Below are positions 7,743 to 37,061 of a DNA stretch of 42,692 nucleotides, piece after piece. The notes beneath the pieces were generated by a model, which saw only the letters and a list, made by a program, of their open reading frames with translations, did no database searches and was not told where the DNA came from. A program made the translations under genes and the position numbers. Origin of the DNA: Minisyncoccota bacterium (GTDB lineage Bacteria; Patescibacteriota; Minisyncoccia; Phycocordibacterales; UBA918); NCBI GenBank assembly GCA_937975855.1, contig CALJTT010000019.1:1-42692 (forward strand), given 5' to 3'. How positions within the stretch are numbered: the stretch's first letter is position 1; each line of letters begins with the position of its first letter.

Positions 7743-10700
7743 ATGCGATTGTTGATGGGAACAACCTCGCAGCGGAAGCTGCGTTCATACTGCTCATTTT
7801 GGCTAGTCCTAACGATCTTGATGATCGATTGTTTTGCTCTGTTAGAGCACGGAATTTGGCGCGCTTCTGAGACGCAAGCCGCGACTGGCGACTTCTCGGT
7901 TTTCCGCGAAGCTACCGGAACCGAGGTAATTGCTGGCGCAGGAAACGACGTGACCTGGGACACAACGGTCAGTGCAAACGCCAACATTGCACTGCAGGTA
8001 AACACGTCGGACATTGACCTGGCTGATGGTGGGAAATACTTAGTTTTATATAACGCATGGACGGAACAAGGGGGTGAGGGTGGTGCAAATCGACGATCGC
8101 TAAATTCTTATTTGACTGTGAACGGAACGGCTTCTGCCTATGGCTGGGGAGCGGGATATTTCCGAGACTCAGAAAGCGACCTGACCGCGTACAACTCGGG
8201 CGCTGCGATTCTTGATGTCACTGCTGGCGACGACGTCGCCGTTGTGCTCGACCGGACAGATTCTAACGCTGGTGGAGGTACTGCAATTCGCCCTGGGACA
8301 AACGGCGTCAGTATTCTTAAACTCGACGACACGCTGGACTATTTGCGAGTTAATCAGAGTACCAACAGTGCGGACATCAGTGGTAACACCGCTTTTACAG
8401 CGACCACGTTTGACACAGCTGACGAAGTTGATACCGATTCCTTTGGATTTACCGCTGGCGGTTCGGCGGTTACTCTTAAGGGCGCAATCGACCAGATGTT
8501 CATAGTGACGTTTAATGTCCGGCTAGATTCTGGTTCAACCAATCGTCAAAATTACGAGGCGCGCCTGCTACTTGGCGGCGGGGAGGTTGATGGTACTCGC
8601 ACCACAACCTACTGGGCTGGTAGTAACGGCACGCAAAGTGGCACTTTGCAGTACGTAGGAATTGTTAAAAAGACATCTGCGTCAGACCAGACTCTGACAC
8701 TAGACGTGCGTCGGGAAAGCAGCACCAGCGGCACGACGAACATTGTTGGGGGAGAGACAGCTATGGCTTTGGTCGCTATCCCAGAAACAGCCGAAGTTTT
8801 GTCGGTGACAAACAACGGCACTCAGGCACTTACTTCGGCTCAAAGTGCATTCAACTGGAATCAACAAATTGCTACAGCGCCGACATATTTTACTCATGAC
8901 ACCGTAACGAATAATAATCAGGTGTCTGTTGCACAAGATGGCGACTATCTGTTTTTTGGTAGTACATACACCAGCCGCACCAGTGGAAAGGGGCGTGATG
9001 TACCTCGGATTGAATGGGTGCTTGATAGCACTGTTCAATCGTACGGTGGCCACGGCGCCTATAACCGCGGTAGCCAAGGTGGTACAGCCTACACCGCTGG
9101 TGGAGCTAGTGCGCTGTTGTTTCCGGGTATGACCACGGGCGAAGTGGTCGAGTTGTATCATTCAGACGAAACTACCGGTACACCCGACGCGTCTTTTGCG
9201 GCAAACCGGGTCGCTTTGCAAGGGGTGGAAGTCAGTACACTGGTACCACCGGTGGTTACGGTTGATGTAAACGTGTCGATGAATGGTGCACAGATAGCAA
9301 CGACCGCCCCAGCAATGGCGGATTTGGTAGTCAGCGAGCAGTTGGCGATTGTCGAAAATTCCCTGGCCCGCAACGTGACGAGTGTTCGATTTACAGAGGC
9401 GGGAACAGTGGACGCGACTACTGGTCTAGATAACATCAGATTGTTTTACGAACTGGATACCACGTTTCCATACGACTGTTTAAGCGAATCATACTCTGGG
9501 GCTGAGGCTCAATTTGGTGCTTCCAGCACGTTTAGCGGCGCCAATGGAACGGTTGTGTTTTCTGATAGTGTATCTATTTCTCCGACACAGGCGTTTTGTG
9601 GTTATGTCGTAGCGGATGTGACCGACAGCGCCATTGACTCTGAAACTATCGACTTGTACATGGCTGACCCTAGTCTGGATGTTGTATTGACCGGGTCGCC
9701 TTCGATCGATCCTGTTATACCAATCGGCACAACGTTGACGACTGTTGTCGACACAGAATTAACGCAGACGCACTATCACTGGCGTAACGACGACGGTAAT
9801 GAAGCCGCAGCGACCTCTGCTAGTGGCGGGGCTGAGGACACTGCCGTCAACGACCTGTCTGTTGGTTTGACTAGAAGACTTCGTGTTGCAATCACTGCGC
9901 CTGGCTCTGGCTTTGGGGTAGAACAGTTCCGTCTTGAATATAGCGAAAAGGTTAACTCCTGTGCAGATGTTTCAGCCTGGACTGACGTGGGTGACGTTGG
10001 TGGAGCTTGGGACATGTCGGACTCGACTTTCTTGGCTGAAGGGGCAAATACCACCAACGTGTCGGTGGCGATCGGTGGTGTGTCTGACAGCGCGTTGACT
10101 TTCCTTAGTACAAACGGAGGTGTGCGTGATGCATCGTCTGAGACCGACCCGCTAAACGTAAGTGCCGGAGATTTGGTCGAGCTAGAATACTCTGTCGAAC
10201 CGACTGCTTCGGCTGTGGGTGGGGTGGGATATTGTTTTCGGGTGACTGACGCGGGCGCTGCTTTGCGACAATATGACGTTTACCCCGAAGCTGCTTTACT
10301 GGCCGGTATTGTTGTCGATGGAGTAGGCAATTTTGCAGCGACTGCTGTCTCCGGTACGGACGATGCATACATCGGTGGTTCGTTTTCAGCGGTAAACAAC
10401 AGCGGTAGCTTCACTGTCACGGAGGTCATAGTGACCGAGACAGGCACAGTTGACGCGGCGGCTTACCTTGGCAACCCGCGATTGTTTTACGAAAGCGACA
10501 CCTCTGCACCGCTGGATTGTGCTAGTGAGTCTTACAGTGGAACCGAAAGTCAGGCTGCCGGTAGTGCCTTCCTGGACGCTAACGGCACGACAACCTTCAC
10601 CCTCAGTTCGCCGATTTCGGTAACCGAGGCATTTTGTGCGTACGTTGTGGTGGATATATCTAGCACAACACCAGACGGAGAAACTGTAGCATTTGAGATT

Positions 10701-13700
10701 TCCAACCCAAGTTCCCAGGTGACGATCGTCGGAGCCAGTGTGGGGCCAGGAAGTGTTGTTAGCCCAGCTGGCAGTACGGTGATAAACGCGCCGGCTTTGT
10801 CCCAGGTCAATTATCATTGGCGTACTGATGGTGCAAATGAATCTACTGCGCCGTCTGCCTCGGGCGGGGTGGAAAATACAGGGATCATCGACGTGTTCCA
10901 GGGTACAAATCGACGACTGCGAGTATCTGTCGCCAACGATGGTAGCGCTACAAAGAGCGCTGCCTCGCTTCGGCTCGAGTACGGTAGCAAAGTCACCACC
11001 TGTGCCAACGTTGGAGTTTGGCAACGGGTCGACGATGGTGTTGCTTTTGAAATGGCCTCGACTTCACAGTTGGTCGATGGCAGCGACACAACCAACATTG
11101 CCGTGTCTGGTGGTGGAGTCACTGACTCTGCCGGGACGTTCCTGAGTCCTAACGGTGCTCAGGAAGAGCTGTCTGACCAAGCGGCCTCGTTTGCGCTTTC
11201 CACCACGGAGTTCGTAGAATTGGAATATGCGATTCAGGCGACCGACGCGTCGAGCTTTGGGGCCACGTATTGTTTCCGGTTGACAGACGCTGGTCAGGCG
11301 TTTGGCACGTATGTTAACTATCCTGAATTGACTGTGCAGGAACGGCAGGACTTCTTTGTGCAACGAGGTATAGAAACTGTCAGTGGCACCGGACTGACTT
11401 TGACGGCTGGGATTGACTACACGGCACCCGCTAGTACTGATTCTGCCTTTGTACGCATCACAAACACGCAGCTGACCGGCGCCGGTAGTGACACACTGGG
11501 TGCGACCCAGAACGCAGATGATCTGTATGCCTATATTACTGGCCCGGTTGATTTGACTACCGGATTCACAATCACCAGACCACCAACCGCGGCTGACAAT
11601 ACTCGCGTTTCGTGGGAAATTGTTGAATTTATTGGGATTGCCGGCAGCGATAACGAGTTCATCGTACGTGACGCTGACGAGGTTATTTATGGAGGCGCCA
11701 GCTTGACAGCCTCGGGGTCGACTGTCCCTGGTGTGGTCAATGACGCTGATGTAGTGGTGTTTATTACTGGTCAGTACAATCCAGATGCGGCAAACAAAAA
11801 CTTTAACACCGGTATGTCGATTTCCAGCTGGAACGCAGCAACTGACGTGCCGGTTTTCGACCGAGGTGATGCCGATGGAGTGGCTGCCGGGGTAAGTTAT
11901 GCCGTGGTTGAGTTCACCGGCGCAAACTGGAACGTGCAGCGAGTAGAACATACATACACAGCTGCTGGAACCGTCGAGACCGAAACTATCTCTGCGGTCA
12001 ACGCTTTGACGCGCACCTTTTTGCATACACAAAAATTAGCTGGTGACGAGCTTGATAACGTTGATGAAAACGGTCACGAGGTGTGGCTGTCGAGCATCGG
12101 TGCTGTTTCGTTTTTGCTTGAGCCGGGGTCGAGTGTGCCGGCCGATCAGCGTTCGGTGGCCTGGGTGATTGAGAATACCCAGCTGGGGGCTGGAGCGCTC
12201 AAGGTGTACCGGACGGCTGACACTATCTTGGCGACCAACGTGCAGCCGACGTCATATCTTTATCCGATCGGTGCTACTGTCAGTCCTTCTAATGCGTCTA
12301 TTTGGGCAAACAACCGCAGTAGCGGTTCAGGCAACGCTCACCCTCGAGGTATTTTAGGAGCGCGGATTTTTGACGAAACGCAGTTTGAGCTGTGGAAGAG
12401 TGATGAGCGCGAAGATCAGTCTTTCCGGGTTGAGGTAGTGGAGTGGCCAGTAGCAGAAACGTCAATCCGGCAAACTCACTTTAGGCTTTACGTTGACAAC
12501 GACACGCTGACACCAACGGATCCATGGCCACCGGGGCCGAGTGACCTGGGCGAGAATACAGCCATGACCGACCTGGACGAGCCGTTAGGTCTAGGCGAGC
12601 GAACGCGTATTCGTACCGGATTGTTCATTAACAACGCATCTTTGATTGCCGAGAGCGCGTCGTTCAAGTTGCAATATGGCCGAAGAGTCACAACTTGTTC
12701 AGCAGTATCTGTATGGGGCGATGTCGGATCGCCTGGCAGTTCCGCTATATGGCGTGGCTTTGATGCGTCGCCGGCAGACAATGCTACTTTGCCTAGTGGG
12801 CTGTTGTCTGTGACCAATGAGCTGGGTACCTATGAAGAAGATTCACCATCGGCGTCGAACCCCGCAACGGTTGAAATTGGTGACTATGTCGAGTATGACT
12901 GGAATGTCGAGCACAACGCGGCCTTCCAAAAAAGCAGTTATTGTTTCCGTATGGTGCACAGCGACGGTGAGGAGATTGACGGTTACGACATTTACCCCAT
13001 TATTCGGACCACTGGTTACACGCCTGTGATTGTGAATTGGCGCTGGTACGACGATGAAACAAACGCAACTCCAGCAACTGCTTTGGCAGCCGAACAAACT
13101 GCTCCCGTTGATATTGTTGCAAGTAATACTGTAAAGCTGCGTGTCGCCGTCACCGAAGTCGAGGGTGCACCAGGAGAAGATATAAAATTCAACCTCGAGT
13201 ACTCACAGTGGTCGGATTTCCGTGACGGAGGAACTACGCTAACGTCCACTACTTCTTGTGTTGGTTTGACCCGGACTTGGTGTTACCAAGACGGCGCCGG
13301 GATCGACAACCAAACGTTAGATTCAACTGTCCTGTCAGGCGTTGATGCGTGTGTCAGTGGCGTAGGCGATGGCTGTGGTACGCACAACGAGGCAGAAAGT
13401 TTGATCGGCTTTTACCAACAGCCTGTTTTTACAACTTCTGAACACGAGTTCACTTTGCTACACAATAGCGTCGGGTTTGATCAGGTTTATTATTTCCGAA
13501 TGGTAGACGCCACCAACGGTGTTCCTCTGGTTGCGTCTACTAGCTATCCAAGTCTTACCACCGAGGGTGCCGCTTTGACCTTTTCGATCAGCGGATTGAA
13601 CGCCGGTTCTGTTTACGAGGGTGTTACTCTCGACTCGACAACCACTGCCACAGACGTTGGGTTTGGAACATTACCGTTCAATAGTCAGGTTGAGGCCGGG

Positions 13701-14093
13701 CAGCGACTGACTGTTTATACAAATGGTACAGAGGGGTATCGCGTGTATCTGCAGGCAGATCAACAGCTGACCAGCCAAAATGGCGAGGAACTAAACTCCG
13801 TCACCGGAACAAACGCCGTGCCGTCAGATTGGAACACTGGCTGTGTCGGCGCGGCCAGTAGTTGCTTCGGGTATCACGTAGGGGACAATATTCTGTACGA
13901 CGGTTCGGTCCGGTTTGCGCTGGACGATTCGTACGCGGCCCTCAACACCACAACACCAGTGGAGGTAATGGCCAGTGGAGTTCCGGTAACATTTGATACA
14001 AGTGAGATCATCTACCGTACAGAGGTCAGCGAATCTCAACCAGCGGGAGACTACATAACAACCCTTCGTTATATTGTGGTTCCGGTGTTCTAG
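7743..14093 (+). CDS. Giant (2116 aa) secreted repeat-rich surface protein
   Basis: Hydrophobic N-terminus; low charge, Ser/Thr/Gly-rich; at least four divergent copies of an HWR...Cys...YCFR module; C-terminus ends PAGDYITTLRYIVVPVF. Confidence 0.85.
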   Translation: MRLLMGTTSQRKLRSYCSFWLVLTILMIDCFALLEHGIWRASETQAATGDFSVFREATGTEVIAGAGNDVTWDTTVSANANIALQVNTSDIDLADGGKYLVLYNAWTEQGGEGGANRRSLNSYLTVNGTASAYGWGAGYFRDSESDLTAYNSGAAILDVTAGDDVAVVLDRTDSNAGGGTAIRPGTNGVSILKLDDTLDYLRVNQSTNSADISGNTAFTATTFDTADEVDTDSFGFTAGGSAVTLKGAIDQMFIVTFNVRLDSGSTNRQNYEARLLLGGGEVDGTRTTTYWAGSNGTQSGTLQYVGIVKKTSASDQTLTLDVRRESSTSGTTNIVGGETAMALVAIPETAEVLSVTNNGTQALTSAQSAFNWNQQIATAPTYFTHDTVTNNNQVSVAQDGDYLFFGSTYTSRTSGKGRDVPRIEWVLDSTVQSYGGHGAYNRGSQGGTAYTAGGASALLFPGMTTGEVVELYHSDETTGTPDASFAANRVALQGVEVSTLVPPVVTVDVNVSMNGAQIATTAPAMADLVVSEQLAIVENSLARNVTSVRFTEAGTVDATTGLDNIRLFYELDTTFPYDCLSESYSGAEAQFGASSTFSGANGTVVFSDSVSISPTQAFCGYVVADVTDSAIDSETIDLYMADPSLDVVLTGSPSIDPVIPIGTTLTTVVDTELTQTHYHWRNDDGNEAAATSASGGAEDTAVNDLSVGLTRRLRVAITAPGSGFGVEQFRLEYSEKVNSCADVSAWTDVGDVGGAWDMSDSTFLAEGANTTNVSVAIGGVSDSALTFLSTNGGVRDASSETDPLNVSAGDLVELEYSVEPTASAVGGVGYCFRVTDAGAALRQYDVYPEAALLAGIVVDGVGNFAATAVSGTDDAYIGGSFSAVNNSGSFTVTEVIVTETGTVDAAAYLGNPRLFYESDTSAPLDCASESYSGTESQAAGSAFLDANGTTTFTLSSPISVTEAFCAYVVVDISSTTPDGETVAFEISNPSSQVTIVGASVGPGSVVSPAGSTVINAPALSQVNYHWRTDGANESTAPSASGGVENTGIIDVFQGTNRRLRVSVANDGSATKSAASLRLEYGSKVTTCANVGVWQRVDDGVAFEMASTSQLVDGSDTTNIAVSGGGVTDSAGTFLSPNGAQEELSDQAASFALSTTEFVELEYAIQATDASSFGATYCFRLTDAGQAFGTYVNYPELTVQERQDFFVQRGIETVSGTGLTLTAGIDYTAPASTDSAFVRITNTQLTGAGSDTLGATQNADDLYAYITGPVDLTTGFTITRPPTAADNTRVSWEIVEFIGIAGSDNEFIVRDADEVIYGGASLTASGSTVPGVVNDADVVVFITGQYNPDAANKNFNTGMSISSWNAATDVPVFDRGDADGVAAGVSYAVVEFTGANWNVQRVEHTYTAAGTVETETISAVNALTRTFLHTQKLAGDELDNVDENGHEVWLSSIGAVSFLLEPGSSVPADQRSVAWVIENTQLGAGALKVYRTADTILATNVQPTSYLYPIGATVSPSNASIWANNRSSGSGNAHPRGILGARIFDETQFELWKSDEREDQSFRVEVVEWPVAETSIRQTHFRLYVDNDTLTPTDPWPPGPSDLGENTAMTDLDEPLGLGERTRIRTGLFINNASLIAESASFKLQYGRRVTTCSAVSVWGDVGSPGSSAIWRGFDASPADNATLPSGLLSVTNELGTYEEDSPSASNPATVEIGDYVEYDWNVEHNAAFQKSSYCFRMVHSDGEEIDGYDIYPIIRTTGYTPVIVNWRWYDDETNATPATALAAEQTAPVDIVASNTVKLRVAVTEVEGAPGEDIKFNLEYSQWSDFRDGGTTLTSTTSCVGLTRTWCYQDGAGIDNQTLDSTVLSGVDACVSGVGDGCGTHNEAESLIGFYQQPVFTTSEHEFTLLHNSVGFDQVYYFRMVDATNGVPLVASTSYPSLTTEGAALTFSISGLNAGSVYEGVTLDSTTTATDVGFGTLPFNSQVEAGQRLTVYTNGTEGYRVYLQADQQLTSQNGEELNSVTGTNAVPSDWNTGCVGAASSCFGYHVGDNILYDGSVRFALDDSYAALNTTTPVEVMASGVPVTFDTSEIIYRTEVSESQPAGDYITTLRYIVVPVF

Positions 14094-14532: not shown

Positions 14533-14605
14533 TCCGGCGTAGCTCAGCTGGTAGAGCAGTTGACTGTTAATCAATTTGTCGCAGGTTCGAGTCCTGCCGC
14601 CGGAG
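14533..14605 (+). tRNA. tRNA-Asn(GTT), encoded CCA follows at 14606-14608
   Basis: Full cloverleaf by eye: TCCGGCG/CGCCGGA acceptor, GCTC/GAGC D-stem, GTTGA-CTGTTAA-TCAAT anticodon arm, GCAGG-TTCGAGT-CCTGC T-arm; 73 nt. Confidence 0.95.
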
Positions 14606-16123
14606 CCAGTTAGGACTATCAGATAGTTCTAGTACTAAATTGAAGGGAGAAGCTAGGGTAAAACCTAGCTTTTTTCCTTGTACGGTAGGGTTCTGAAGTA
14701 GGTAATTCAAAAATGCACGTTTTGAGGAAGCTTCAGAACTATTTTCAAAGATGGTCTTTGCTCTTCGTGCTACAGATATGACTGTAGCAACTGTTGTTTG
14801 GTAGTTGCTGTCTGCCTTGTTGTGTTCTGCCATCTCAATTTCAAGTGTCTGGATTTGGTCTTGGTACTCTTGATGCTTTTTGTCATAGATGTCCTTAGTA
14901 ATACTCTGGTCTAAAAATGCATCTAGCAAACGGTCCGATTTAGCTTTTAGTTTATCGTAGTCAGCTCGTATACGATTTATCTGAGCTTTATGAAAAACAA
15001 CCTCAGCTTCTGTGTTTTTTCGTAACTCATCAACTAAATCATTCTGCACTTCTTCAGTAATGCTTTCAAAGCGTTCCAGAACGTCATATACGGGCTTCAG
15101 AAGGTCTTTCTCTGGTACGTATATCCTTTTACATATCTTCTTTGCATTAGAGCAGGAATAGTACGTATAGGTCTTACCGCTTGGTTTAACTTTTGTTTCT
15201 CCACTGATGGTGCATCCACAGTTTTCGCACTTCAAAAGACCTTTAAAAATAAAGTCTTTGGACAGAGCTTTGTTTGGTTTTCTTTTCCTGCCAGCACAAA
15301 TTTCCTGACATCTATCAAACAGTTCTTTAGTGATCAGCTTTGGATACCTGTGTGGGTATGGACCATACTTTTTTGATACCGCTACTCCATAGTAAAAGCT
15401 ATCTTTAATGATGTAATCAATATTACTCCTTGATATAACGCCTCCCTTAAGGCTTCTTAATCCGAGTTTTGTAATTTCCTGTCGGGCGGTTTCAAGTGAA
15501 TGGTTACCTGTCGCGTACAGCTCAAATAGCTTTTGGATTAAGTGTCCACGATCTGGGTCAATGATAATATCTTTTCGCAAACGTTTATGTTCGTCTAAGG
15601 CTATGTTTAGGTAACCAAGCCTTACAGTACCTGTCCATTCTCCATTACGACGCTTCTGTTCAAACGCTCTTTTAACATTGTCTCCAATAGCATCTGAATA
15701 GTATTTAGCTAAACCTAAACTCATTCCAAATTGAAACTTTTCAACCGCTGACATCTGATTATTGATAACCTGTCCATCAGATACAAAATGTAGTTCAATT
15801 TCATCAGCTAGTGCCATCTCGTATAAAGTACCAACTCGCTTATCGAAAACGCTACGAGAAAGACGGTCAACTTTATCAAAGCAAACCGCGACCTTTTCTT
15901 TTTTAGCTAGCTTTTGAACAAATTCAAGAAGCTTATCAAACTCATCTCTTTTAGATTTGTAGGCACTTTCATCAAAGCTAAAGGTAGTTGGAACTTCTTC
16001 AAGGTCATTTCGTTTACAGTATTCTGAAATACGTTCTATTTGAGCAGGCAATGAGTTACCAGCATCTTTTTGTTCTTCTGTTGAAACTCTGGATACATTG
16101 ATTGCTTTCATATTAGTACTCAA
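14567..16123 (-). CDS. Large serine recombinase (element 1); 3' end antisense to tRNA-Asn
   Basis: NVSRVSTEEQKDAGNSLPAQI, VAVCFDKVDRLSR, zinc-ribbon CENCGCTISG...YYSCSNAKKICKR; C-terminus NWLRRQDSNLRQID is encoded on the strand opposite the tRNA 3' half. Confidence 0.93.
   Translation of the reverse strand: MSTNMKAINVSRVSTEEQKDAGNSLPAQIERISEYCKRNDLEEVPTTFSFDESAYKSKRDEFDKLLEFVQKLAKKEKVAVCFDKVDRLSRSVFDKRVGTLYEMALADEIELHFVSDGQVINNQMSAVEKFQFGMSLGLAKYYSDAIGDNVKRAFEQKRRNGEWTGTVRLGYLNIALDEHKRLRKDIIIDPDRGHLIQKLFELYATGNHSLETARQEITKLGLRSLKGGVISRSNIDYIIKDSFYYGVAVSKKYGPYPHRYPKLITKELFDRCQEICAGRKRKPNKALSKDFIFKGLLKCENCGCTISGETKVKPSGKTYTYYSCSNAKKICKRIYVPEKDLLKPVYDVLERFESITEEVQNDLVDELRKNTEAEVVFHKAQINRIRADYDKLKAKSDRLLDAFLDQSITKDIYDKKHQEYQDQIQTLEIEMAEHNKADSNYQTTVATVISVARRAKTIFENSSEASSKRAFLNYLLQNPTVQGKKLGFTLASPFNLVLELSDSPNWLRRQDSNLRQID
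14650..14675 (+). terminator. Intrinsic terminator for tRNA-Asn, lying inside the antisense recombinase CDS
   Basis: AAGCTAGG-GTAAAA-CCTAGCTT followed by TTTT: 8-bp perfect stem plus T tract, 45 nt after the tRNA. Confidence 0.8.
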
Positions 16124-17081
16124 GTGCTTTTGTAATATTTTTTGTCATATGCCACATAACAACAGGGGCGACAGCATTACCAAGTGCACGATAATTCTTA
16201 CCTTTTCCATCCAGTAGTTTGAAGTTTTCAGGGAAAGATTGAATTCTCGCAACTTCTCTTGGTGTAAACATTCGGTACCTATCTTTTTCGAATAGCACAG
16301 GATCTGTACTGTTAAGACTCACTTTAGCTAAATGAGAAGTTACTGTATTGCAAGGCTCATTGATATTTTGGGCTCGTCCCTTGTTCATAGTTTTTGAGTT
16401 TTTTGATTTCTTCATTCCCTCAACCGCTCTTTCACTAAAATAATATTTTTCGTCGATTTCGTCTTCAAGAATATCTTTTATTGGAGTAAGGTTTTCTTTC
16501 AGAGTCCCTGTCGGAAAAGAGAAATTTTCAGAAGCCTTCTTGTCTCTAAAGCCAACTATGAATACACGTTCTCGTTTTTGGGGTACACCAAAGTGAGATG
16601 CATTCATAACTTGATAAGATACGTGGTACCCAGCATTTTCAAACTCCTGCAGTATTAAGGGAAAGGTCTCGCCTTTATTTGCTGAGAGTAAACCTTTTAC
16701 ATTTTCAGCGACAAAAGCTTTCGGTTTTTTGTCCTTCAGTACTCTACACATTTCAAAAAAAAGTTTCCCTTTTTCATCATCGTAACCAAGCCTTTTAGGA
16801 TTTTGAGCTACTACAGAAAAAGACTGACAGGGGAACCCTCCAGTTAATATATCGTGATCAGGAACATCTGAAGAAGCGATATCTCTAATGTCTGCCTGTA
16901 AACACTTGTTTTTAAAGTTTAGGTTGTAAATTTCGCAAACATCCTTATCGAAATCCGTCGCAAATACTGTTTGTGTCTTTAGTCTCGTGTATTTTTTACC
17001 CAGAAATTCAAATCCTCCTTCAGTGCCTAAATCCATTCCACCACAACCAGAAAAAAAAGAAGCTATTTTATAAGTACTCAT
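16113..17081 (-). CDS. DNA (cytosine-5) methyltransferase (R-M cassette)
   Basis: FFSGCGGMDLG, GGFPCQSFSV, FVAENVKGLL, RERVFIVGF, RALGNAVAP motifs. Confidence 0.93.
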   Translation of the reverse strand: MSTYKIASFFSGCGGMDLGTEGGFEFLGKKYTRLKTQTVFATDFDKDVCEIYNLNFKNKCLQADIRDIASSDVPDHDILTGGFPCQSFSVVAQNPKRLGYDDEKGKLFFEMCRVLKDKKPKAFVAENVKGLLSANKGETFPLILQEFENAGYHVSYQVMNASHFGVPQKRERVFIVGFRDKKASENFSFPTGTLKENLTPIKDILEDEIDEKYYFSERAVEGMKKSKNSKTMNKGRAQNINEPCNTVTSHLAKVSLNSTDPVLFEKDRYRMFTPREVARIQSFPENFKLLDGKGKNYRALGNAVAPVVMWHMTKNITKALEY

Positions 17082-17084
17082 ATT

Positions 17085-18500
17085 CTATATAGCTAAATGT
17101 TCCCAGTAACCCGACTTATCAGAGTACCGAATACTTGCACCATCCCTGGGTGTCATATCTAGTAAATCAGACTTATATTTTCCTACTGGATCGTCAATTA
17201 TAAACAACTTAACTCCACTTGATGAAATCATAAGTCGGTACACGTAGTAGCTTGCTCTTGATGTGTTTGCAGAACTCCACTCACTTGGTGTCATTTGAAA
17301 GGAACGAGAAGCAAGCTTGCCTCTACTAATTGTGGTTTTTACTTCAATGTATCGCCTGATGTCACCTTCACCGTGGTAAGAACTAATGTCGTATCCGACC
17401 GCAAACGTTTCAGGTATTTTTTTGATTAGGTGGAGGAGGTCTTCTCTGTCTAAGGAGGTGAGTCTTGCTTTCTCGTGTTCAATAACTATTGACTCTCCAA
17501 CGTCACCAATCTCTTTAGTTTTTATACCCTTATCTGACTCGATCTTAGTTTGAAGCGTTTCAAGTATAGACTTCAAGAAATCCATATCACCTCCGTCTTC
17601 TGCTTCTTCAAGAATAGATAAGATGTTAGCCTTAAATATAGACGTGTCTAATTGGTCGTTAACATACTTGAACCACTGAGGCTGAGTGTCTGTAACCTGT
17701 TTTAAGCTTGCGATTGTATCGGCTTCGTAGAGTGCTTCATAGGGAGGGAAGCAAGTGTTAAGGGAGTTTATGTAGGCCTGAATAGTTTCAAAGTTTACTG
17801 TATTTGGGTAGTACTGATAGTTTGGGCGTAGGGTTACCAGGTCTGCAAGTTCCATATAATCAAGAATATCGCCTGCATATCTTACAACATCCCCAGACTG
17901 GTCAAATTCAATTTTTTCATCCCGTAAGCTAATTATTAACTTTGCGGTCTCAACGGGCGGTCTTTGGTCTCTTGTAACTCTAAGGTCATTGAATATGCAG
18001 TGTGTAGCTTCTGCCTTTGTCATACCAAACTTCTTTTCACCAAGGATTTTCTGACCTTCCATCATAACAGCCAGCATATATCCTGCTGGTTTAAATTTAA
18101 TGCCAGCTTGAATGTATTCAAAACTTTCGTTGGGTTTTAAGTGGCCTCCTGGATATTGAAAATAATATAGAAAATATCTAAAAAACTCGACCAAGTCTTC
18201 TGACTCGGACAACTTTACCGCCAATCTAGAGGGTTTTGCGATATCCTTGTCGTATTCTACGAGACCAAATAAGGCTGAAATCTCAGTTCTCCAATTATTT
18301 ATTGTTTTTATCTTTTTTGACCCATTTTCTGGGTACTGAGCGATAATATTATTTAGCTTTTCGCTGAACGTTTTAGGGTCAGACGCTTCAAGTCTGGCAA
18401 TTTCGTTTGCCATAAAAAACAGAACGTTTTCAACATCGTTTTTAAAGCGAGGTCTTATGTGGTGAATTCTGAAAAAATGTTCGTCAGGTGTTTTATACAT
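17085..18500 (-). CDS. Putative restriction endonuclease with C-terminal DUF3883/PD-(D/E)XK-like domain
   Basis: 471 aa; C-terminus GYDISSYHGEGDIRRYIEVKTTISRG...FQMTPSEWSSA...YYVYRLM fits the GYD-x(n)-EVK nuclease-like pattern; lies between two m5C methyltransferases. Confidence 0.7.
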   Translation of the reverse strand: MYKTPDEHFFRIHHIRPRFKNDVENVLFFMANEIARLEASDPKTFSEKLNNIIAQYPENGSKKIKTINNWRTEISALFGLVEYDKDIAKPSRLAVKLSESEDLVEFFRYFLYYFQYPGGHLKPNESFEYIQAGIKFKPAGYMLAVMMEGQKILGEKKFGMTKAEATHCIFNDLRVTRDQRPPVETAKLIISLRDEKIEFDQSGDVVRYAGDILDYMELADLVTLRPNYQYYPNTVNFETIQAYINSLNTCFPPYEALYEADTIASLKQVTDTQPQWFKYVNDQLDTSIFKANILSILEEAEDGGDMDFLKSILETLQTKIESDKGIKTKEIGDVGESIVIEHEKARLTSLDREDLLHLIKKIPETFAVGYDISSYHGEGDIRRYIEVKTTISRGKLASRSFQMTPSEWSSANTSRASYYVYRLMISSSGVKLFIIDDPVGKYKSDLLDMTPRDGASIRYSDKSGYWEHLAI

Positions 18501-18505
18501 AAATA

Positions 18506-19555
18506 TTATGACAATTGCTTAAGTAAAGCCTGACCAATTTTCTCTGCTAATAACGGAGGTACAGCATTACCAACCTGTTTGTACTGACTCGTCTTTGAGC
18601 CAGTAAAGATAAACCCATCAGGGAAGGATTGAAGTCTTGCAGACTCTCGCACAGTTGGGACTCTGTTGAATTTGTAGTGAAAATGATGTCTGTGCCCAGT
18701 GTCAATAGTTGGACTTTGTTTCTTGCTATTAAACCTGGTCCAGGCAATGTTGACTCTTCTGGTATTTTGAAACTCTTTAGGTAAATCTTTATAGTTTCCA
18801 CCATCAGGGACCATTGATATCAAGTCAACAGTTTTCTGTTCGTGATTTGTAAGCTGATGGTTATGGATTTCAGATTTTGAACTCCTTGCCCAGTTCTGGA
18901 AAGAAGATTTTGCTTTTGTCTTAATTTTAAAACCGTCTTCTAAGTCCTTGTCGGGCAGATCAGATATTGCTTCGGCAACAGTCGTCTTGTCATTTGGTGT
19001 GGTCGGATCAGGAAAGGAAAACTCTTGTTTGCTTTTGAGACCGACGAAAACAACTCGACGTCTATTCTGGGGTACTCCATAATCTGAAGCAAGAAGGATT
19101 TTATATGTAACTTTATAACCCAGCTTTTGAAAATCATTGATTATATTATCTTTGATTTTACCCTGGTCCATTGAAACTAAATTAGGTACGTTCTCAAGGA
19201 CGAAAGCCGAAGGATTAAACTTTTTTACAATCTGAACAAATCCTTTATATAAATTGTTTCGAGGATCGTCTGGATTTCTATGCCCTGAAATTGAAAAGCC
19301 TTGGCACGGGGGACCACCAACAACCACATCAATATCCCCTAATTCTTTTTTTAACTCTTGCAAATTAGGGTTGCCTAGATCAACGTTAAATACTTTTGCA
19401 CCACTGTGATTTTTTTCAAATGTTGCCAATGCATCATTCCAATCATCTATACCAGCAACAATATCAAAGCCTGCCATCTCAAAACCGTATGACATACCGC
19501 CACAGCCAGAGAACAGGTCAAGAACTTTTGGTTTTTTACTTAGTTTTTTTGGCAT
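18506..19555 (-). CDS. DNA (cytosine-5) methyltransferase, second of the R-M cassette
   Basis: VLDLFSGCGGMSYGFEMAGF, VGGPPCQGFSISG, FVLENVPNL, RRRVVFVGL, QVGNAVPPLLAEKIG motifs. Confidence 0.94.
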   Translation of the reverse strand: MPKKLSKKPKVLDLFSGCGGMSYGFEMAGFDIVAGIDDWNDALATFEKNHSGAKVFNVDLGNPNLQELKKELGDIDVVVGGPPCQGFSISGHRNPDDPRNNLYKGFVQIVKKFNPSAFVLENVPNLVSMDQGKIKDNIINDFQKLGYKVTYKILLASDYGVPQNRRRVVFVGLKSKQEFSFPDPTTPNDKTTVAEAISDLPDKDLEDGFKIKTKAKSSFQNWARSSKSEIHNHQLTNHEQKTVDLISMVPDGGNYKDLPKEFQNTRRVNIAWTRFNSKKQSPTIDTGHRHHFHYKFNRVPTVRESARLQSFPDGFIFTGSKTSQYKQVGNAVPPLLAEKIGQALLKQLS

Positions 19556-19719
19556 TTTTTCAGAAAATCATTAAATTCTTGTTTATCAATACGGTATTCC
19601 TTCCCAATCTTATATGCCTTTAGTCTACCTGAATTGATATAGCGATATATTGTCATAATATTCACATCCAACTTCTCAGCTAAATCTTCAGCTCTGTAAA
19701 ACTCTTTATCGGTATCCAT
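19540..19719 (-). CDS. Helix-turn-helix / excisionase-like DNA-binding protein (element 1)
   Basis: 59 aa, missing from ORF track: MDTDKEFYRAEDLAEKLDVNIMTIYRYINSGRLKAYKIGKEYRIDKQEFNDFLKKCQKN*. Overlaps the methyltransferase start. Confidence 0.85.
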   Translation of the reverse strand: MDTDKEFYRAEDLAEKLDVNIMTIYRYINSGRLKAYKIGKEYRIDKQEFNDFLKKCQKN

Positions 19720-19735
19720 AAGCTTTATTTAATCA

Positions 19736-20095
19736 TTATACTTTACTATTCTTTACATCCAAACTATTAACCCCCAGTGTGGCATTGAGAAATAATCTGT
19801 AATACTCCCCCTTCATCGTGATAGTGAGCTTTGGATTATCTCTTGTTATACGTTCGTAGTTGGTGGCTATCCATTCCCATATCCTGAGCTCTTGCTCTGG
19901 ATCAACATCTCTTCGAAAATTTAAAAGAGTGCTTTCTAAGCTAGTCTTGTCTACTTCGGAAAGCTTCTTTTTGTAATTTATAACCCGTTCAATAAAGTTG
20001 TTTGTGAGTTCTTTATGTCGTATTCTCCCAACCTTCAATTTGGTGATGTCTACTTTTTCAAGACTAAACACCTGTTTTTTTCCTGTTTTTTTCAT
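19736..20095 (-). CDS. Hypothetical protein (119 aa)
   Basis: ORF in the co-oriented element-1 operon. Confidence 0.6.
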   Translation of the reverse strand: MKKTGKKQVFSLEKVDITKLKVGRIRHKELTNNFIERVINYKKKLSEVDKTSLESTLLNFRRDVDPEQELRIWEWIATNYERITRDNPKLTITMKGEYYRLFLNATLGVNSLDVKNSKV

Positions 20096-20098
20096 AAT

Positions 20099-20254
20099 TT
20101 ATTTTTTTACTTCACTTTTTAATAATGCTTTTTTGTGTGCCATACCCCTTCTGATACTCTCTGATAGTGAATTTCTGTAATATTTTGAAGTTGCGGAAAT
20201 AATTGAATTAATTAATTCTTCTTTTGCTCCAATCTTCTTTTTATTATTTTTCAT
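20099..20254 (-). CDS. Small basic hypothetical protein (51 aa)
   Basis: MKNNKKKIGAKEELINSIISATSKYYRNSLSESIRRGMAHKKALLKSEVKK*; not in ORF track; ends 3 nt before the next ATG and overlaps the upstream gene end. Confidence 0.5.
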   Translation of the reverse strand: MKNNKKKIGAKEELINSIISATSKYYRNSLSESIRRGMAHKKALLKSEVKK

Positions 20255-21374
20255 ATTTTTGTACTTTGTATGGTTTGTAATCTGTTAATTTATTATCAAT
20301 TTGTGTTACCCAATCCCTGAGTTTATTTTCAGTGATAAGCTCACTAGCTTCTCTCATATCTTTAGCTATTCGGTACCAAGTTCTGTCGTGTGAGTGTTTA
20401 GCAATTATTGTTCTTAACTGTCTCATTCCATTCTCATCTCTGGCAAGCTGAAACAGTCCTAGTAAATAGATTGCTTGTTTAGGCTTTAGAGATTTGTCAG
20501 CTAAGAACAAGGTACGTAAAATATCCTTTATGCTTAGTGAGACTGAAAACAGTCCGAGACTCCTTTCCTTTATAAGCTTTTGCCAGTAATCATTAACTAC
20601 TCTTTTACTCAATTCTTCACTGAAAACATCTTTGAATGTAGGATTTTTAGAGTAGCCGAAACTTTCTATGACCTTATTCATTTTCTGTTTGTGATTAAGG
20701 CGTATTTCAAAACGCAGAACCTCATTTAATTCGTTGTTTTTAGTCAGACCACTAAGCAAGTTTCGCTGATATTGAGTTTGGTCTTTATCAATCGCACGTT
20801 TTTTATTTTTAGTTAAGTCAGCCATCTTGTCGTAAATAACCATCTGATGTGCAGTTGTGTGTGCATACAGACTTTGTCCATCATTCATAAAGCGTGTTTT
20901 TGCAAAATCAAAGCTCTTTCGCAGATCTACCTTGTTCATTTCCGAAATTAAGTGAGATGCGGTGTACCCGTCATCTATCTGAATGTTCTTAGAAAAATGA
21001 ATAGAGCTAACGGATGCGTCTTCAATATCTGACTCTTTAAGAACGATACCCATTGTTTGGAGTCTATCTTTCAATGTTTTAACTACTTCAGGAAAATCAA
21101 CATCCTGTAGTTCGTCTAAGTTGTTTAAGTAGATTAGTTTTGGAACTGAAAACTCAATGCGGACATTAGCTTCCTGTCCATAATATTTTCGTTTGTAACC
21201 TGTAAGCCTAGGGAAGTACAGACCACTTTCCAAGTCTCTTCTTGAAGGGTTTTTCACGAACTTATCGTATTGGTCAGTTTTGGAGTGTAAGTCCCACTTC
21301 GGTACACCGTAGGACGACAAATCCAGCACAGTGAGCTTTTCTTTTGGTATCAATAAGCACACGGTATCAATCAT
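20244..21374 (-). CDS. Phage/plasmid replication-initiator-like protein (gene II/CRI-type, tentative)
   Basis: 376 aa; MIDTVCLLIP..., GLYFPRLTGYKRKYYGQEANVRIEFSVPKLIYLNN, later RFEIRLNHKQKMN; overall pattern recalls filamentous-phage gene II-type initiators. Confidence 0.5.
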   Translation of the reverse strand: MIDTVCLLIPKEKLTVLDLSSYGVPKWDLHSKTDQYDKFVKNPSRRDLESGLYFPRLTGYKRKYYGQEANVRIEFSVPKLIYLNNLDELQDVDFPEVVKTLKDRLQTMGIVLKESDIEDASVSSIHFSKNIQIDDGYTASHLISEMNKVDLRKSFDFAKTRFMNDGQSLYAHTTAHQMVIYDKMADLTKNKKRAIDKDQTQYQRNLLSGLTKNNELNEVLRFEIRLNHKQKMNKVIESFGYSKNPTFKDVFSEELSKRVVNDYWQKLIKERSLGLFSVSLSIKDILRTLFLADKSLKPKQAIYLLGLFQLARDENGMRQLRTIIAKHSHDRTWYRIAKDMREASELITENKLRDWVTQIDNKLTDYKPYKVQKYEK

Positions 21375-21375
21375 T

Positions 21376-21534
21376 TCACCTGTTTTTTACCTGATAAAGT
21401 GCAGGATTTTGTTTCTTATCCTCTTTGATAAGCCACGCAAAAGCTTCGACCAATTTGTTTCTGTCCTCAAGTGATAAATCACTAACGCTGAGGGCAGTTA
21501 CTTGCTTTTGATTGTTATTAATAATTTCCTGCAT
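21376..21534 (-). CDS. Small hypothetical protein (52 aa)
   Basis: MQEIINNNQKQVTALSVSDLSLEDRNKLVEAFAWLIKEDKKQNPALYQVKNR*; its stop lies just upstream of the Rep-like start; not in ORF track. Confidence 0.55.
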   Translation of the reverse strand: MQEIINNNQKQVTALSVSDLSLEDRNKLVEAFAWLIKEDKKQNPALYQVKNR

Positions 21535-21598
21535 ATAAAAATCCCGAAGGATTAACTGCAGGATAATTTATTGTTTATTTTGTTTTACTTATAGTGTT

Positions 21599-22660
21599 TT
21601 ATAGTGTGACTACCTTATATCCGTTTCTTATCTTTATTGAGTGAAAATTAATAATAAATAAATCACTAATTCCTTTATTAATTAGTCTTTTATTGAATTG
21701 CATCAGTGCGTCATACATATTTTTATCTGTTCGTGGTTTGCCGTCATTTAGTTCAGAATTATCTCTAATTTCATCATAGAAACATTCATCATAAACATCC
21801 TCTCTTTCAAATATGTATTTAATTATGTAGTAGATATCTTTACCTTTTGTTAGCTTTATTTCATTACCTTTACAAATCAGTTTTGAAGACTCGCTATCAA
21901 ATAAAACAGAGTCTTCTTTCTCGGTAGCCTGTTCTATATCATTGAGTTTAATAAGGTTTTGGAACAGATTTACTGGTTCCAACATCTCCTCTTTTGTAAG
22001 CTCGTTTCTGTCATAAAAACCAATGTAATCAGTTTTACCTCTGTTTGTAAGGGAAATTGAAAAGTCTAGTGTTTCATCAACCTCTAATTCCTTGATTTTC
22101 TCAATTAGTCCATAGGTATCATTCTCATCAATTCTCTCTAGGTATGACTTCTGACTCTTCTTATCCTTTTGAATATGTTTATACAAAACATCAATTTCTG
22201 GAACAGAATTCATTATGTTGGTTTTGACAAAAAAATTATTACCTTTCTCTGTTGTCTTGATGTTATCTAAAAAAACATTAAAGGTGTCATCGGTTTTCGA
22301 CAGCCAGTAATCATATCTCTCATCACCTTCCATTTTTCCTAATTTAAGAAAATTATATGTAACTTCCTTAAAAAGAGCGTCTTCGGGGAACTCTAAAAAC
22401 AGCGTTTCTTTATTTTTTTCTATGAAATTAAGCAAAGGAAATATCTTAAAATGTACATACCCATATAAGGTGTCAGACATAAAAGACTCGATAGAATTAT
22501 CTTCAGCAGACCTTTCCTTGTCTATATTCATCAGGCTTTCAATTTCCACAGCAAGAAGCTTATACTCGTGATATTTTTCATAAAAATCTACATCAAGCGG
22601 TATCTTATGTAGTAGTTCATAAACCAAGCCAATTTTTGAAATAAGTCTTTTTCTGTCCAT
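21599..22660 (-). CDS. Hypothetical protein with winged-helix-like C-terminus
   Basis: 353 aa; C-terminal LFDSESSKLICKGNEIKLTKGKDIYYIIKYIF resembles the trans_reg_C beta-hairpin/helix entry pattern. Confidence 0.6.
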   Translation of the reverse strand: MDRKRLISKIGLVYELLHKIPLDVDFYEKYHEYKLLAVEIESLMNIDKERSAEDNSIESFMSDTLYGYVHFKIFPLLNFIEKNKETLFLEFPEDALFKEVTYNFLKLGKMEGDERYDYWLSKTDDTFNVFLDNIKTTEKGNNFFVKTNIMNSVPEIDVLYKHIQKDKKSQKSYLERIDENDTYGLIEKIKELEVDETLDFSISLTNRGKTDYIGFYDRNELTKEEMLEPVNLFQNLIKLNDIEQATEKEDSVLFDSESSKLICKGNEIKLTKGKDIYYIIKYIFEREDVYDECFYDEIRDNSELNDGKPRTDKNMYDALMQFNKRLINKGISDLFIINFHSIKIRNGYKVVTL

Positions 22661-22699
22661 ATACTTTACTTTAGTTTACATTAGCTTATCATTTAATGT

Positions 22700-23503
22700 A
22701 TGCCAACGTATGCTAAAAGATTTAGGACAGAGCGTTATGATTTTGAAACTCATTTAATTTACGCTGAGTTACTTGAAAGATTGTCTGATGCTGTAACCGT
22801 CTCTACTCAGCAGACCGCCAAGCTAAGTTCGTCAGACGCTGAAAAGCTGAAGGAAAAGATACAGTTAGTAAAATTAACGAAAAAATCAATAGACCAAGAA
22901 TATGAGATTGTTACGTTTGACAAAGAATACTCAACAGCTTCAGTTCTTTGGTTGCCTATAAAGACCTACTATCTTATCTATCACTTGATTTGTATATTGG
23001 AATGTCTACTGACAGGAAATTTGAAACATCTTTCGGGTGGGCATTCTACTTTAGTCAGTGAGTTTGCTAAAAAACTTGAAAAATCTGACCTAGAGTTTTC
23101 CAATACTCAACTAAACCTAGTCTTTGACCAAGACATTCTCAACTTTAAGACTAAGTCTGGCGAGCATCTTCATCACGGTGTTGCTGATGATACCTTGTAT
23201 AAATTACTGATGAAAAAAGTTGCCAAAGAGAAGATTGCGAATTTTAAGATAACGAATGCTTTAGATGCTCGCAAAGGAGCTGACAAAGCAAGGATAGTAA
23301 AGTTCACTAATAGCCTGAAAGTTTCAATCTTTGACTATTTTTACTTGATGAGATTAAGGACTAACTATCGCAACTCTAATTTCATAGATGATCTACCATC
23401 AAAAGATACGAAGGTTTATTTCGAGAAGTACTATTCTGCTTCTTGTAATTTCTACTCAGCAACAACTAAGCTAATCAACCAACTGATGAAGGACTGTAAG
23501 TAG
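22700..23503 (+). CDS. Hypothetical protein (267 aa), divergent from the element-1 operon
   Basis: Long ORF, opposite strand to all other element-1 genes. Confidence 0.65.
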   Translation: MPTYAKRFRTERYDFETHLIYAELLERLSDAVTVSTQQTAKLSSSDAEKLKEKIQLVKLTKKSIDQEYEIVTFDKEYSTASVLWLPIKTYYLIYHLICILECLLTGNLKHLSGGHSTLVSEFAKKLEKSDLEFSNTQLNLVFDQDILNFKTKSGEHLHHGVADDTLYKLLMKKVAKEKIANFKITNALDARKGADKARIVKFTNSLKVSIFDYFYLMRLRTNYRNSNFIDDLPSKDTKVYFEKYYSASCNFYSATTKLINQLMKDCK

Positions 23504-23568
23504 TAAGTTCTGAACTCAATACATCTAATATTCCACTGAATTGCAATTCTTGTTGCACTTTATGCCAA

Positions 23569-25125
23569 TTAGCAGTTCTGAATTCGTCCACTAGGGGGAG
23601 CAGAACAAGATGTAGAGGTGTCAGAAGGGTCACATTGTGTGGCTTTTTCTGTTTCTGAAGTGAAAGATATGATGCTATCAAAGGGTGAATTGATAGTGAA
23701 GGTAATCTCCTTGTCCTTCAAAACAGCGTTCGAAAGTAGTAGTTTTAGGATCTGATTCTTCTCCTCGTCATTCGCACGCTCGAACAGCTCTCCAGCTCGT
23801 CTGGCAAGTAAACAAACATGTTTAACGGTGACGTGGTAGTTGGTGTCTGCAACAGTATGTTCTGCACGTTTTAAGACAATATTCTCGTGGTCAGTATCAA
23901 GTTGCGCCATTTTCTTTTCGTATACTTCCTGTGTGATACGGTCTTGTAACAGCAGCTCAAGTAGATTGTCTTTCTTTGTCTGGATCACTGTGTGTGAGGC
24001 GTGTAGCTTGCTCAGCTCTTCTTTATGATATCGAGCTTTGTATTCGTGTGTCTCACGCAAATGGTCGACGATGCTTTCTAGTTGCTTGTCAGTTAACTGA
24101 ATGCTCTCAAACAGTGGCTTTAGCTGCTCCATAAGCACCGCCTCTTGCGTATATTCGCGTTTGCAGATCTTTTTACCGTTAGAGCAAGCGTGATAGGGTT
24201 TACCGCGTTTGACTTCTCTGCAGACCGTACAGCCGCAATTAGCACACTTTAACCACCCTACAAAAGGATTTGTTTTCTTTCGTTTGACGTGGCCAGATTG
24301 ATTGTCTTTAGCTTTGAGTACTGCCTGCACATTATCGAATAGCGCCTTACTGATTAAGGGTTGGTAGATGTGGTTAAAATACTGATTGTATTTACGCGTG
24401 TAGGCTCGACCAAAGTAAAAAGTGTTGGTCAAAATTGTGTATACAGCACTGGTATGAAATGGACGCCCGGTCCGAGTCGTGACACCTAGGTTGTTTAAGT
24501 GATCACGGATGGTAGCAATTGAGTGTTGTCCTGAGGCATACATTTCGTAGATTTCTTCCACATAATGTGATGTAAGCGGGTCTGGAACTAAATTCTCACG
24601 TAAACGTTTTTTGACATCTCGCATCACGGAAGTATATCCAAATGGGGCGGGACCAGACCATTCGCCTCGTTGACGCATACCCTCAAGGCCACGTTTGGTA
24701 TTGTCACTAATCGCATTTGAATAGTACTCAGCCAAACTAAGATTAATACCAAATTGAAACTTTGTTGTGGCAGACATATCACTACCTATTGCTTGACCGT
24801 CTGACACAAAATGAAGTTCAATTTTTTCATCACGAGCCATTTCGTTCAGTTTCTTGACTCGATCGTCGAAAGTATTTCGCGATAGTCGATCAACCTTATC
24901 AAAACAAACAGCAATTTTTTCATCATGCTTATTGAGCTGTTCAAGTAGTTGGTCAAATTCATTGCGCTTCTCACCGTAAGCACTTTCATCAAAACTATAT
25001 TCTTCTGCAACGGTAAAACCCTTCCGCTCGCAGTATTTTTTCATGCGATCGATTTGTGCAGGCAGGGAATTGCCAGCATCTTTTTGTTCTTCTGTAGATA
25101 CTCGTGCAAATAGAATAGCTTTCAT
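23569..25125 (-). CDS. Large serine recombinase (element 2), paralog of 14567-16123
   Basis: LFARVSTEEQKDAGNSLPAQI, IAVCFDKVDRLSRNTF, CANCGCTVCREVKRGKPYHACSNGKKICKREY; also 518 aa. Confidence 0.93.
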   Translation of the reverse strand: MKAILFARVSTEEQKDAGNSLPAQIDRMKKYCERKGFTVAEEYSFDESAYGEKRNEFDQLLEQLNKHDEKIAVCFDKVDRLSRNTFDDRVKKLNEMARDEKIELHFVSDGQAIGSDMSATTKFQFGINLSLAEYYSNAISDNTKRGLEGMRQRGEWSGPAPFGYTSVMRDVKKRLRENLVPDPLTSHYVEEIYEMYASGQHSIATIRDHLNNLGVTTRTGRPFHTSAVYTILTNTFYFGRAYTRKYNQYFNHIYQPLISKALFDNVQAVLKAKDNQSGHVKRKKTNPFVGWLKCANCGCTVCREVKRGKPYHACSNGKKICKREYTQEAVLMEQLKPLFESIQLTDKQLESIVDHLRETHEYKARYHKEELSKLHASHTVIQTKKDNLLELLLQDRITQEVYEKKMAQLDTDHENIVLKRAEHTVADTNYHVTVKHVCLLARRAGELFERANDEEKNQILKLLLSNAVLKDKEITFTINSPFDSIISFTSETEKATQCDPSDTSTSCSAPPSGRIQNC

Positions 25126-25304
25126 GATTTAGTTGTTTTTGTAGCCTCTAAGAAGTCCTCAAGGTCGCTGTGTTTAATTCGAAATTCTTTCCCGATCTTA
25201 TAGGCAGGCAACTTACCGGCTTTGATGTACCGATAGATGGTCATGATGTGCACATCTAGCTTATTGGCAACATCATCAACTCGGTAGAATTCTTTTTCTA
25301 ACAT
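25122..25304 (-). CDS. Helix-turn-helix / excisionase-like DNA-binding protein (element 2)
   Basis: MLEKEFYRVDDVANKLDVHIMTIYRYIKAGKLPAYKIGKEFRIKHSDLEDFLEATKTTKS; ATGA overlap with recombinase 2. Confidence 0.88.
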   Translation of the reverse strand: MLEKEFYRVDDVANKLDVHIMTIYRYIKAGKLPAYKIGKEFRIKHSDLEDFLEATKTTKS

Positions 25305-37047: not shown

Positions 37048-37061
37048 CTGCCGCCGGAGCC
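37048..37061 (+). repeat. 14-nt direct repeat of tRNA-Asn 3' end (candidate attR)
   Basis: CTGCCGCCGGAGCC is identical to 14594-14607, same orientation. Confidence 0.6.

Follow-up and report, generated by a model that had tools for sequence, protein, structure and literature searches.

A restriction-modification exchange slot between helix-turn-helix and recombinase genes in tRNA-targeting integrative elements of Patescibacteria

Why should a complete restriction-modification (R-M) system lie, gene against gene, between a small helix-turn-helix (HTH) gene and the recombinase gene of an integrative element? The question is raised by contig CALJTT010000019.1 of a Minisyncoccota bacterium (assembly GCA_937975855.1), analyzed here as a whole stretch of 42,692 nucleotides (nt), hereafter the window. 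The window contains two related integrative elements, and the first of them (element 1) is inserted at the 3′ end of a tRNA-Asn gene. Among 47 HTH-recombinase pairs, the interval between the two genes is a slot with exact borders and changing cargo, behind a shared promoter that co-varies with the HTH type and in elements joined to tRNA genes. We are fairly confident that it is a dedicated, promoter-coupled slot for the exchange of R-M cassettes in tRNA-targeting integrative elements, its regulation and function being inferred.

The HTH-recombinase unit of the window

The unit of element 1 is given below in the order of transcription, followed by the attachment site and the respective genes of element 2.

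19735-19757, minus strand: predicted promoter/operator TGTAAAGAATAGTAAAGTATAAT of the HTH-cargo-recombinase unit, with 0 mismatches to the pattern, which stands directly upstream of the HTH gene in 31 of 47 loci
19540-19719, minus strand: small HTH_17 protein, upstream border of the slot (Pfam HTH_17, PF12728, E=1e-13), with a paralog at 25122-25304 and homologs in 46 further pairs
18506-19555, minus strand: slot cargo, C5-cytosine methyltransferase 1 (Pfam PF00145, E=6e-81)
17085-18500, minus strand: slot cargo, BpuJI-type restriction endonuclease (Pfam BpuJI_N, E=2e-92, and NOV_C; PADLOC REase_II)
16113-17081, minus strand: slot cargo, C5-cytosine methyltransferase 2 (Pfam PF00145, E=3e-79; PADLOC MTase_II)
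14567-16111, minus strand: large serine recombinase of element 1 (Pfam Resolvase, Recombinase and Zn_ribbon_recom); start at ATG 16111 by homology, the listed open reading frame (ORF) running from TTG 16123
14533-14608, plus strand: tRNA-Asn(GTT), attachment site (ARAGORN and Rfam), its 3′ part overlapped by the end of the recombinase gene
25122-25304, minus strand: HTH of element 2, 59% identical to that of element 1; slot empty, ATGA overlap with the recombinase gene
23569-25125, minus strand: serine recombinase of element 2 (Pfam), 43% identical to recombinase 1

A preliminary description of this DNA had placed a methyltransferase-endonuclease-methyltransferase (M-R-M) cassette between the HTH and recombinase genes of element 1, and had taken element 2, where these two genes share an ATGA, as a paralogous pair. 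Gene order, coordinates, strand, overlap and paralogy are all correct. The edge spacing was right for the 16-nt overlap of the HTH and methyltransferase genes and for the inner gaps of 3 and 5 nt. The 11-nt overlap between the last methyltransferase gene and the recombinase gene was an error due to the use of the upstream TTG at 16123; homologs start at MKA, that is, at ATG 16111, which leaves a gap of 1 nt.

With recombinase 1 as the query, genome contigs, 59 relatives and samples at class, order and phylum level were searched, and the DNA around the matches was retrieved. After deduplication, the set consists of 47 loci (numbered with the prefix L), two of them from the window, in which an HTH homolog precedes the recombinase in the same orientation. 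The Resolvase, Recombinase and zinc-ribbon domains are all present in recombinase 1 and in the recombinase of L038, and recombinase 1 is a large serine recombinase. Its gene ends inside tRNA-Asn, and in most homologous loci the recombinase gene also ends inside a tRNA gene of opposite orientation. As a rule this is tRNA-Asn, whereas tRNAs for His, Leu, Gln, Glu and Ser are each found once or a few times. With its recombinase-side end in a tRNA gene, element 1 is a tRNA-integrating element.

Cargo turnover and exact borders of the slot

The length of the HTH-recombinase interval ranges from -4 nt to 6.7 kb. The interval is filled in 42 of the 47 loci and empty in five, namely element 2 of the window, L044, L097 and L108 (gaps of -4 to +4 nt) and L107 (387 nt without an ORF of 45 amino acids, aa). 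All 85 ORFs of the 42 filled slots are on the strand of the recombinase. The junctions have median gaps of 2 nt after the HTH gene and 1.5 nt before the recombinase gene, and in 16 of 42 cases the last cargo gene overlaps the recombinase gene by exactly 4 nt. Such co-orientation (85/85) combined with such tight junctions is far beyond chance.

Of the 42 cargoes, 35 are R-M systems by Pfam and PADLOC, and the slots contain about 25 cargo classes altogether. The R-M systems include relatives of BpuJI (window and L040), CfrBI, EcoO109I, HindIII, ThaI, HpaII, MvaI/BcnI and AlwI. Further cargoes are an EcoRI-methylase with GmrSD/HNH, an endonuclease VII partner and a weak SacI match. Type I systems are located in L055, L090 and L093, and type III systems in L037, L038, L049, L050, L052, L053, L058 and L088. 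A type IIG-like system is found in L101, an HKD/Snf2 helicase with an Eco57I methylase in L113, and an Mrr-type enzyme in L048. In L110 (6656-8623), an in-frame fusion of HTH and type III methyltransferase is followed by Res and the recombinase, and the slot border is lost by the fusion.

The cargo of the window is, by its domain make-up, a predicted BpuJI-type R-M system. In detail, PF11564, the DNA-recognition domain at the N-terminus of BpuJI, covers residues 2-277 of the endonuclease (E=2e-92), NOV_C, taken as the PD-(D/E)XK nuclease domain, lies at residues 335-434, and two C5-methyltransferases adjoin. The expectation that homologous elements would carry diverse defense genes in the same slot was borne out. 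The opposite outcomes, that is, this R-M system in every element or no cargo in any, were not seen; among the 47 pairs the BpuJI-type M-R-M occurs outside the window only in L040. The designation of the cargo as defense genes is right as regards R-M and too broad for defense systems generally, as almost nothing other than R-M and small unknown proteins is found in the slots.

Seven of the 42 slots have no defense match (L041, L042, L043, L045, L087, L094 and L095). Their products are mostly membrane proteins, and several are small ones of a single family. Members of this family are placed directly before the recombinase (L042:599-1237, L043:9450-10004, L048:9373-10014, L094:10513-11007 and L041:9100-9849), in one case alongside the Mrr-type enzyme. 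They share the motifs ELNxKWWYRLxKV at the N-terminus and RRIFYYxVLGK at the C-terminus, and the predicted structure is of low confidence (predicted local distance difference test, pLDDT, 55).

The turnover of the cargo is evident even between close relatives. A single clade of the recombinase tree, with 13 elements and recombinases about 70-80% identical, contains 11 cargo classes, and cargo is shared by only 2 of the 81 pairs with recombinases at least 70% identical. When cargo class is placed on the recombinase tree, 33 changes are needed versus 34.1 in shuffles, so the cargo follows the recombinase tree no better than chance. The backbone stays together, as indicated by the correlation of recombinase and replication-protein identities (rho 0.51).

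The borders were examined with blastn in 77 pairs of elements that are closely related and differ in cargo. The similarity runs out at the HTH stop codon (median offset 0 nt; quartiles, -19 and +9 nt) and sets in again at the ATG of the recombinase gene (median offset -1 nt; quartiles, -6 and 0 nt), while the cargo in between varies, which supports the cargo-exchange slot proposed beforehand. For instance, L034 and L035, found in the same metagenome-assembled genome (MAG), are 83% identical to 28 nt past the HTH stop, unrelated thereafter, and 80% identical from 1 nt before the recombinase start. The reverse case is L090 and L093, in which the recombinases are 45% and the replication proteins 42% identical but HsdM and HsdR 86%, with similarity dropping at the recombinase ATG. 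As this pair suggests, cargo has evidently moved between distant backbones. Neither repeats nor recombination sites peculiar to the borders were found.

Promoter, HTH protein and competing explanations

A predicted promoter/operator, TTGnnATGTAAAG-N4-GTAAAGTATAAT, is conserved upstream of the HTH gene whatever the cargo. It has the form of a -35 and a -10 element whose spacer bears a direct repeat with a period of about 10 bp. The copy in the window (19735-19757) is perfect and comprises the -10 and a spacer with the direct repeat GTAAAG-N4-GTAAAG, preceded by a TTG-type -35; with up to 3 mismatches allowed, 0.07 matches would be expected by chance in the whole window. The motif stands within 150 nt of the HTH gene in 31 of 47 loci versus 2 of 940 shuffles, and a scan of whole loci found it once per locus, except for two sites in L035. 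In L041, L049, L080 and L087 it is located one gene further upstream, with an extra gene between promoter and HTH. In L087 (9072-9812) a RibD_C (dihydrofolate-reductase-like) gene occupies this second insertion position.

Six elements have another HTH type, with the recognition segment LTVYRW and not MTIYRY. They are without this motif and carry the direct repeat TGnTAAAnAATGnTAAATATA, exact in some of them and degraded in others. This co-variation of motif and HTH type suggests that the promoter repeat is recognized by the HTH protein, in which case the type II HTH should prefer the TGTTAAATAATG repeat. The coupling of the cargo into the HTH/recombinase transcription unit, as had been suggested, is well supported at the sequence level by the border breaks and the one conserved promoter upstream of HTH. 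The label "xis-like", given earlier to the HTH, is unproven. The protein is of the small HTH_17 DNA-binding type (PF12728, E=1e-13), as are excisionases (Xis, or recombination directionality factors, RDF), and a role as autoregulator of the operon would fit the promoter evidence at least as well.

The elements form a family with a backbone of a replication protein, small ORFs, the HTH gene and a tRNA-targeting large serine recombinase, and with one cargo position between the HTH stop and the recombinase ATG. Unrelated R-M types are replaced there as whole cassettes, probably through recombination in the conserved flanking HTH and recombinase genes. One transcript would run from the promoter before HTH through the cargo to the recombinase. 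Repression of this promoter by the HTH protein itself, through binding to the direct repeat of 10-bp period, is most likely. Upon entry into a repressor-free cell, R-M and recombinase would be strongly expressed and later held low, with a benefit in element maintenance, phage defense or both.

In regard to this benefit, R-M systems can act as addiction modules, whose loss kills the cell. The cassettes might be kept mainly for that reason and not for phage defense, their coupling to the recombinase operon serving the maintenance of the element. The location of R-M in a mobility operon and the near restriction of the cargo to R-M (35/42), with no other defense systems, are in favor of this explanation. 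On the contrary, the Mrr-type, methyl-directed cargo of L048 has no methyltransferase in the slot and is no obvious addiction module, and rapid turnover of types fits phage-driven or incompatibility-driven selection equally. Maintenance by addiction is a serious candidate, to which we give somewhat less than even chances.

It was also considered that the HTH protein controls the R-M system in the manner of the C proteins of type II R-M, in which case it would travel with the cassette and not belong to the backbone. The gene is directly upstream of a methyltransferase gene, R-M systems are known to be regulated through an operator by small HTH proteins, and the protein matches the PADLOC mad1 model. 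However, the same HTH family is found beside the recombinase in empty-slot elements (element 2 of the window, L044 and L097), and it accompanies all R-M types as well as non-R-M cargo, with HTH and promoter conserved when the cargo is not. This explanation, largely refuted by the empty-slot elements, was rejected as very improbable. A further possibility is that no special slot exists: R-M genes, which are frequent in patescibacterial genomic islands (PMC12455944), would insert at any point of mobile DNA and were noticed here only by looking here. This is hardly credible and was rejected, because the control of the flanks and the border test both held. For the 116 neighboring genes outside the slots of these loci, the 25 leading PADLOC families include no R-M and have at most 3 members each (MzaA, AbiEii, DrmC), whereas the 85 slot genes yield numerous methyltransferase families, the largest with 23 members. 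The borders are nucleotide-exact in the 77 comparisons, and the orientation is 85/85.

Several observations weigh against a dedicated exchange slot. The extra gene in L041, L049, L080 and L087 means that the slot is not the only tolerated insertion position, and some homology inside the slot exists in 9 of the 77 pairs. The BpuJI-type system shared by the window and L040 might reflect vertical inheritance. Some distant relatives are without HTH and slot (L079, L082 and L105), and L110 has its HTH fused to the first gene of the R-M system. In addition, the cargo classes are manual assignments based on Pfam/PADLOC, and a simple caller was used for the ORFs.

Backbone, element ends and known systems

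The remaining features of element 1 are located upstream of the HTH gene.

19736-20095, minus strand: 119-aa backbone protein of a 13-locus cluster, at the same place in other elements
20099-20254, minus strand: 51-aa protein like the alpha-E helix segment of the recombinase
20244-21374, minus strand: replication-initiator-like backbone protein with inovirus G2P fold (Foldseek)
21376-21534, minus strand: 52-aa conserved backbone protein of a 24-locus cluster, all co-oriented
21599-22660, minus strand: 353-aa conserved backbone protein with direct homologs in 9 loci, in a 23-locus cluster of such proteins
22658-22680, minus strand: second copy of the operator motif, with 2 mismatches, upstream of the 353-aa gene (motif scan)

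The replication-like protein has a homolog upstream of HTH in 39 of the 47 loci, and 4 of these 39 match PHROG 702 "replication protein". Its predicted structure (pLDDT 87) matches Inoviridae G2P (Foldseek E=5e-7) and unnamed viral proteins (E down to 1e-8), with moderate template modeling (TM) scores of 0.45-0.5; sequence and fold searches of the PDB gave nothing significant. Other common backbone proteins are of about 52 aa (24 loci) and 350-400 aa (23 loci). No inovirus coat or assembly ATPase (pI/Zot) genes were recognized among the backbone proteins sampled by Pfam, and we take the element to be an integrating plasmid-like element and not a phage.

The protein of 51-53 aa just upstream of HTH, similar to the alpha-E helix segment of the recombinase, also occurs in L036 (2703-2861), L038 (5285-5446) and L076 (8260-8418). 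In L039 (7638-8162) its counterpart runs further into the recombinase (E=9e-21). The protein may regulate the recombinase as a decoy of the dimer interface, or it may be a remnant that has been conserved.

A 14-nt exact copy of the tRNA-Asn 3′ end (CTGCCGCCGGAGCC) is located at 37048-37061, 22.4 kb from the tRNA, and L112 has an 18-nt tRNA copy. Within the sequence searched, most other loci showed no long far-end tRNA repeats. If 37048-37061 is the far attachment site, the island includes ordinary-looking metabolic genes, such as a PurB-like gene (35253-36680). Element 2 follows directly behind element 1, and positions 23580-23602, in the end of recombinase 2 (gene end 23569), resemble the tRNA-Asn 3′ end (GAATTCGTCCACTAGGGGGAGCA), which makes a tandem insertion of both elements at tRNA-Asn plausible. 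A 2116-aa surface-type protein with repeated segments (7743-14093) adjoins tRNA-Asn.

Nearly all of the named hosts belong to the ultra-small Patescibacteria (Nomura-, Magasanik-, Wolfe-, Uhr-, Kaiser-, Levy-, Pacebacteria and others), and two loci from MAGs labeled Neomarinimicrobiota and Bacteroidota may be binning errors. No relatives of the recombinase were found in an IMG/VR scan. Phage and plasmid collections contained distant relatives only (at most 34% identity), and the four inspected were without the HTH-slot-recombinase arrangement.

Integrative elements with R-M cargo are already known, and so are fixed sites at which defense genes are exchanged. The searches made of the open-access literature gave no description of a nucleotide-exact R-M slot in an HTH-recombinase unit or of this element family, and the conserved promoter is also new here. 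The family offers a natural repeated experiment, in which mobile elements exchange whole immune cassettes at an exact place under their own control, and the poorly known mobile elements of Patescibacteria gain one named family with attachment site, promoter and cargo slot. The slot is also a search handle, since proteins of unknown function inside it are candidate new defense or maintenance genes. Tentatively, the family may be phylum-wide, with a plug-in position that sets any R-M cassette under the repressor of the element and induces it on entry; the slot membrane proteins (L041-L043, L048 and L094) would then be an undescribed defense or maintenance family.

Patescibacteria are mostly without CRISPR-Cas and are said to rely on R-M, and a genomic island with a complete type I R-M system has been described in a Patescibacterium (PMC12455944). 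The island resembles the elements presented here in carrying R-M in this phylum; its text mentions no recombinase, integrase, tRNA site or slot. A review covers integrative (mobilizable) elements (IMEs) that carry R-M cargo and have large serine recombinases directed at tRNA or other sites (PMC5704250). The likeness extends to the large serine recombinase beside the attachment site, the small HTH gene, the replication gene and the accessory R-M. In contrast to IMEs, the cargo is found here at one nucleotide-exact position in the HTH-recombinase unit with one conserved promoter, the replication protein is inovirus-G2P-like, and no relaxase was identified.

Phages and their satellites (P2/P4-type loci) have hot spots of anti-phage cargo. 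These similarly hold rapidly exchanged defense cassettes at a fixed position between conserved flanking genes, whereas here the flanks are an HTH and a serine integrase, the cargo is nearly only R-M and the hosts are Patescibacteria. Cassette chromosomes of the staphylococcal (SCC) type carry ccr serine recombinases and R-M genes, and thus share the link of a serine recombinase to R-M on an integrating element. A cassette chromosome is also described from Enterococcus (PMC6222049). Unlike the SCC type, the elements of this family integrate into tRNA genes, mostly tRNA-Asn, and keep their cargo within the recombinase operon instead of in separate joining regions.

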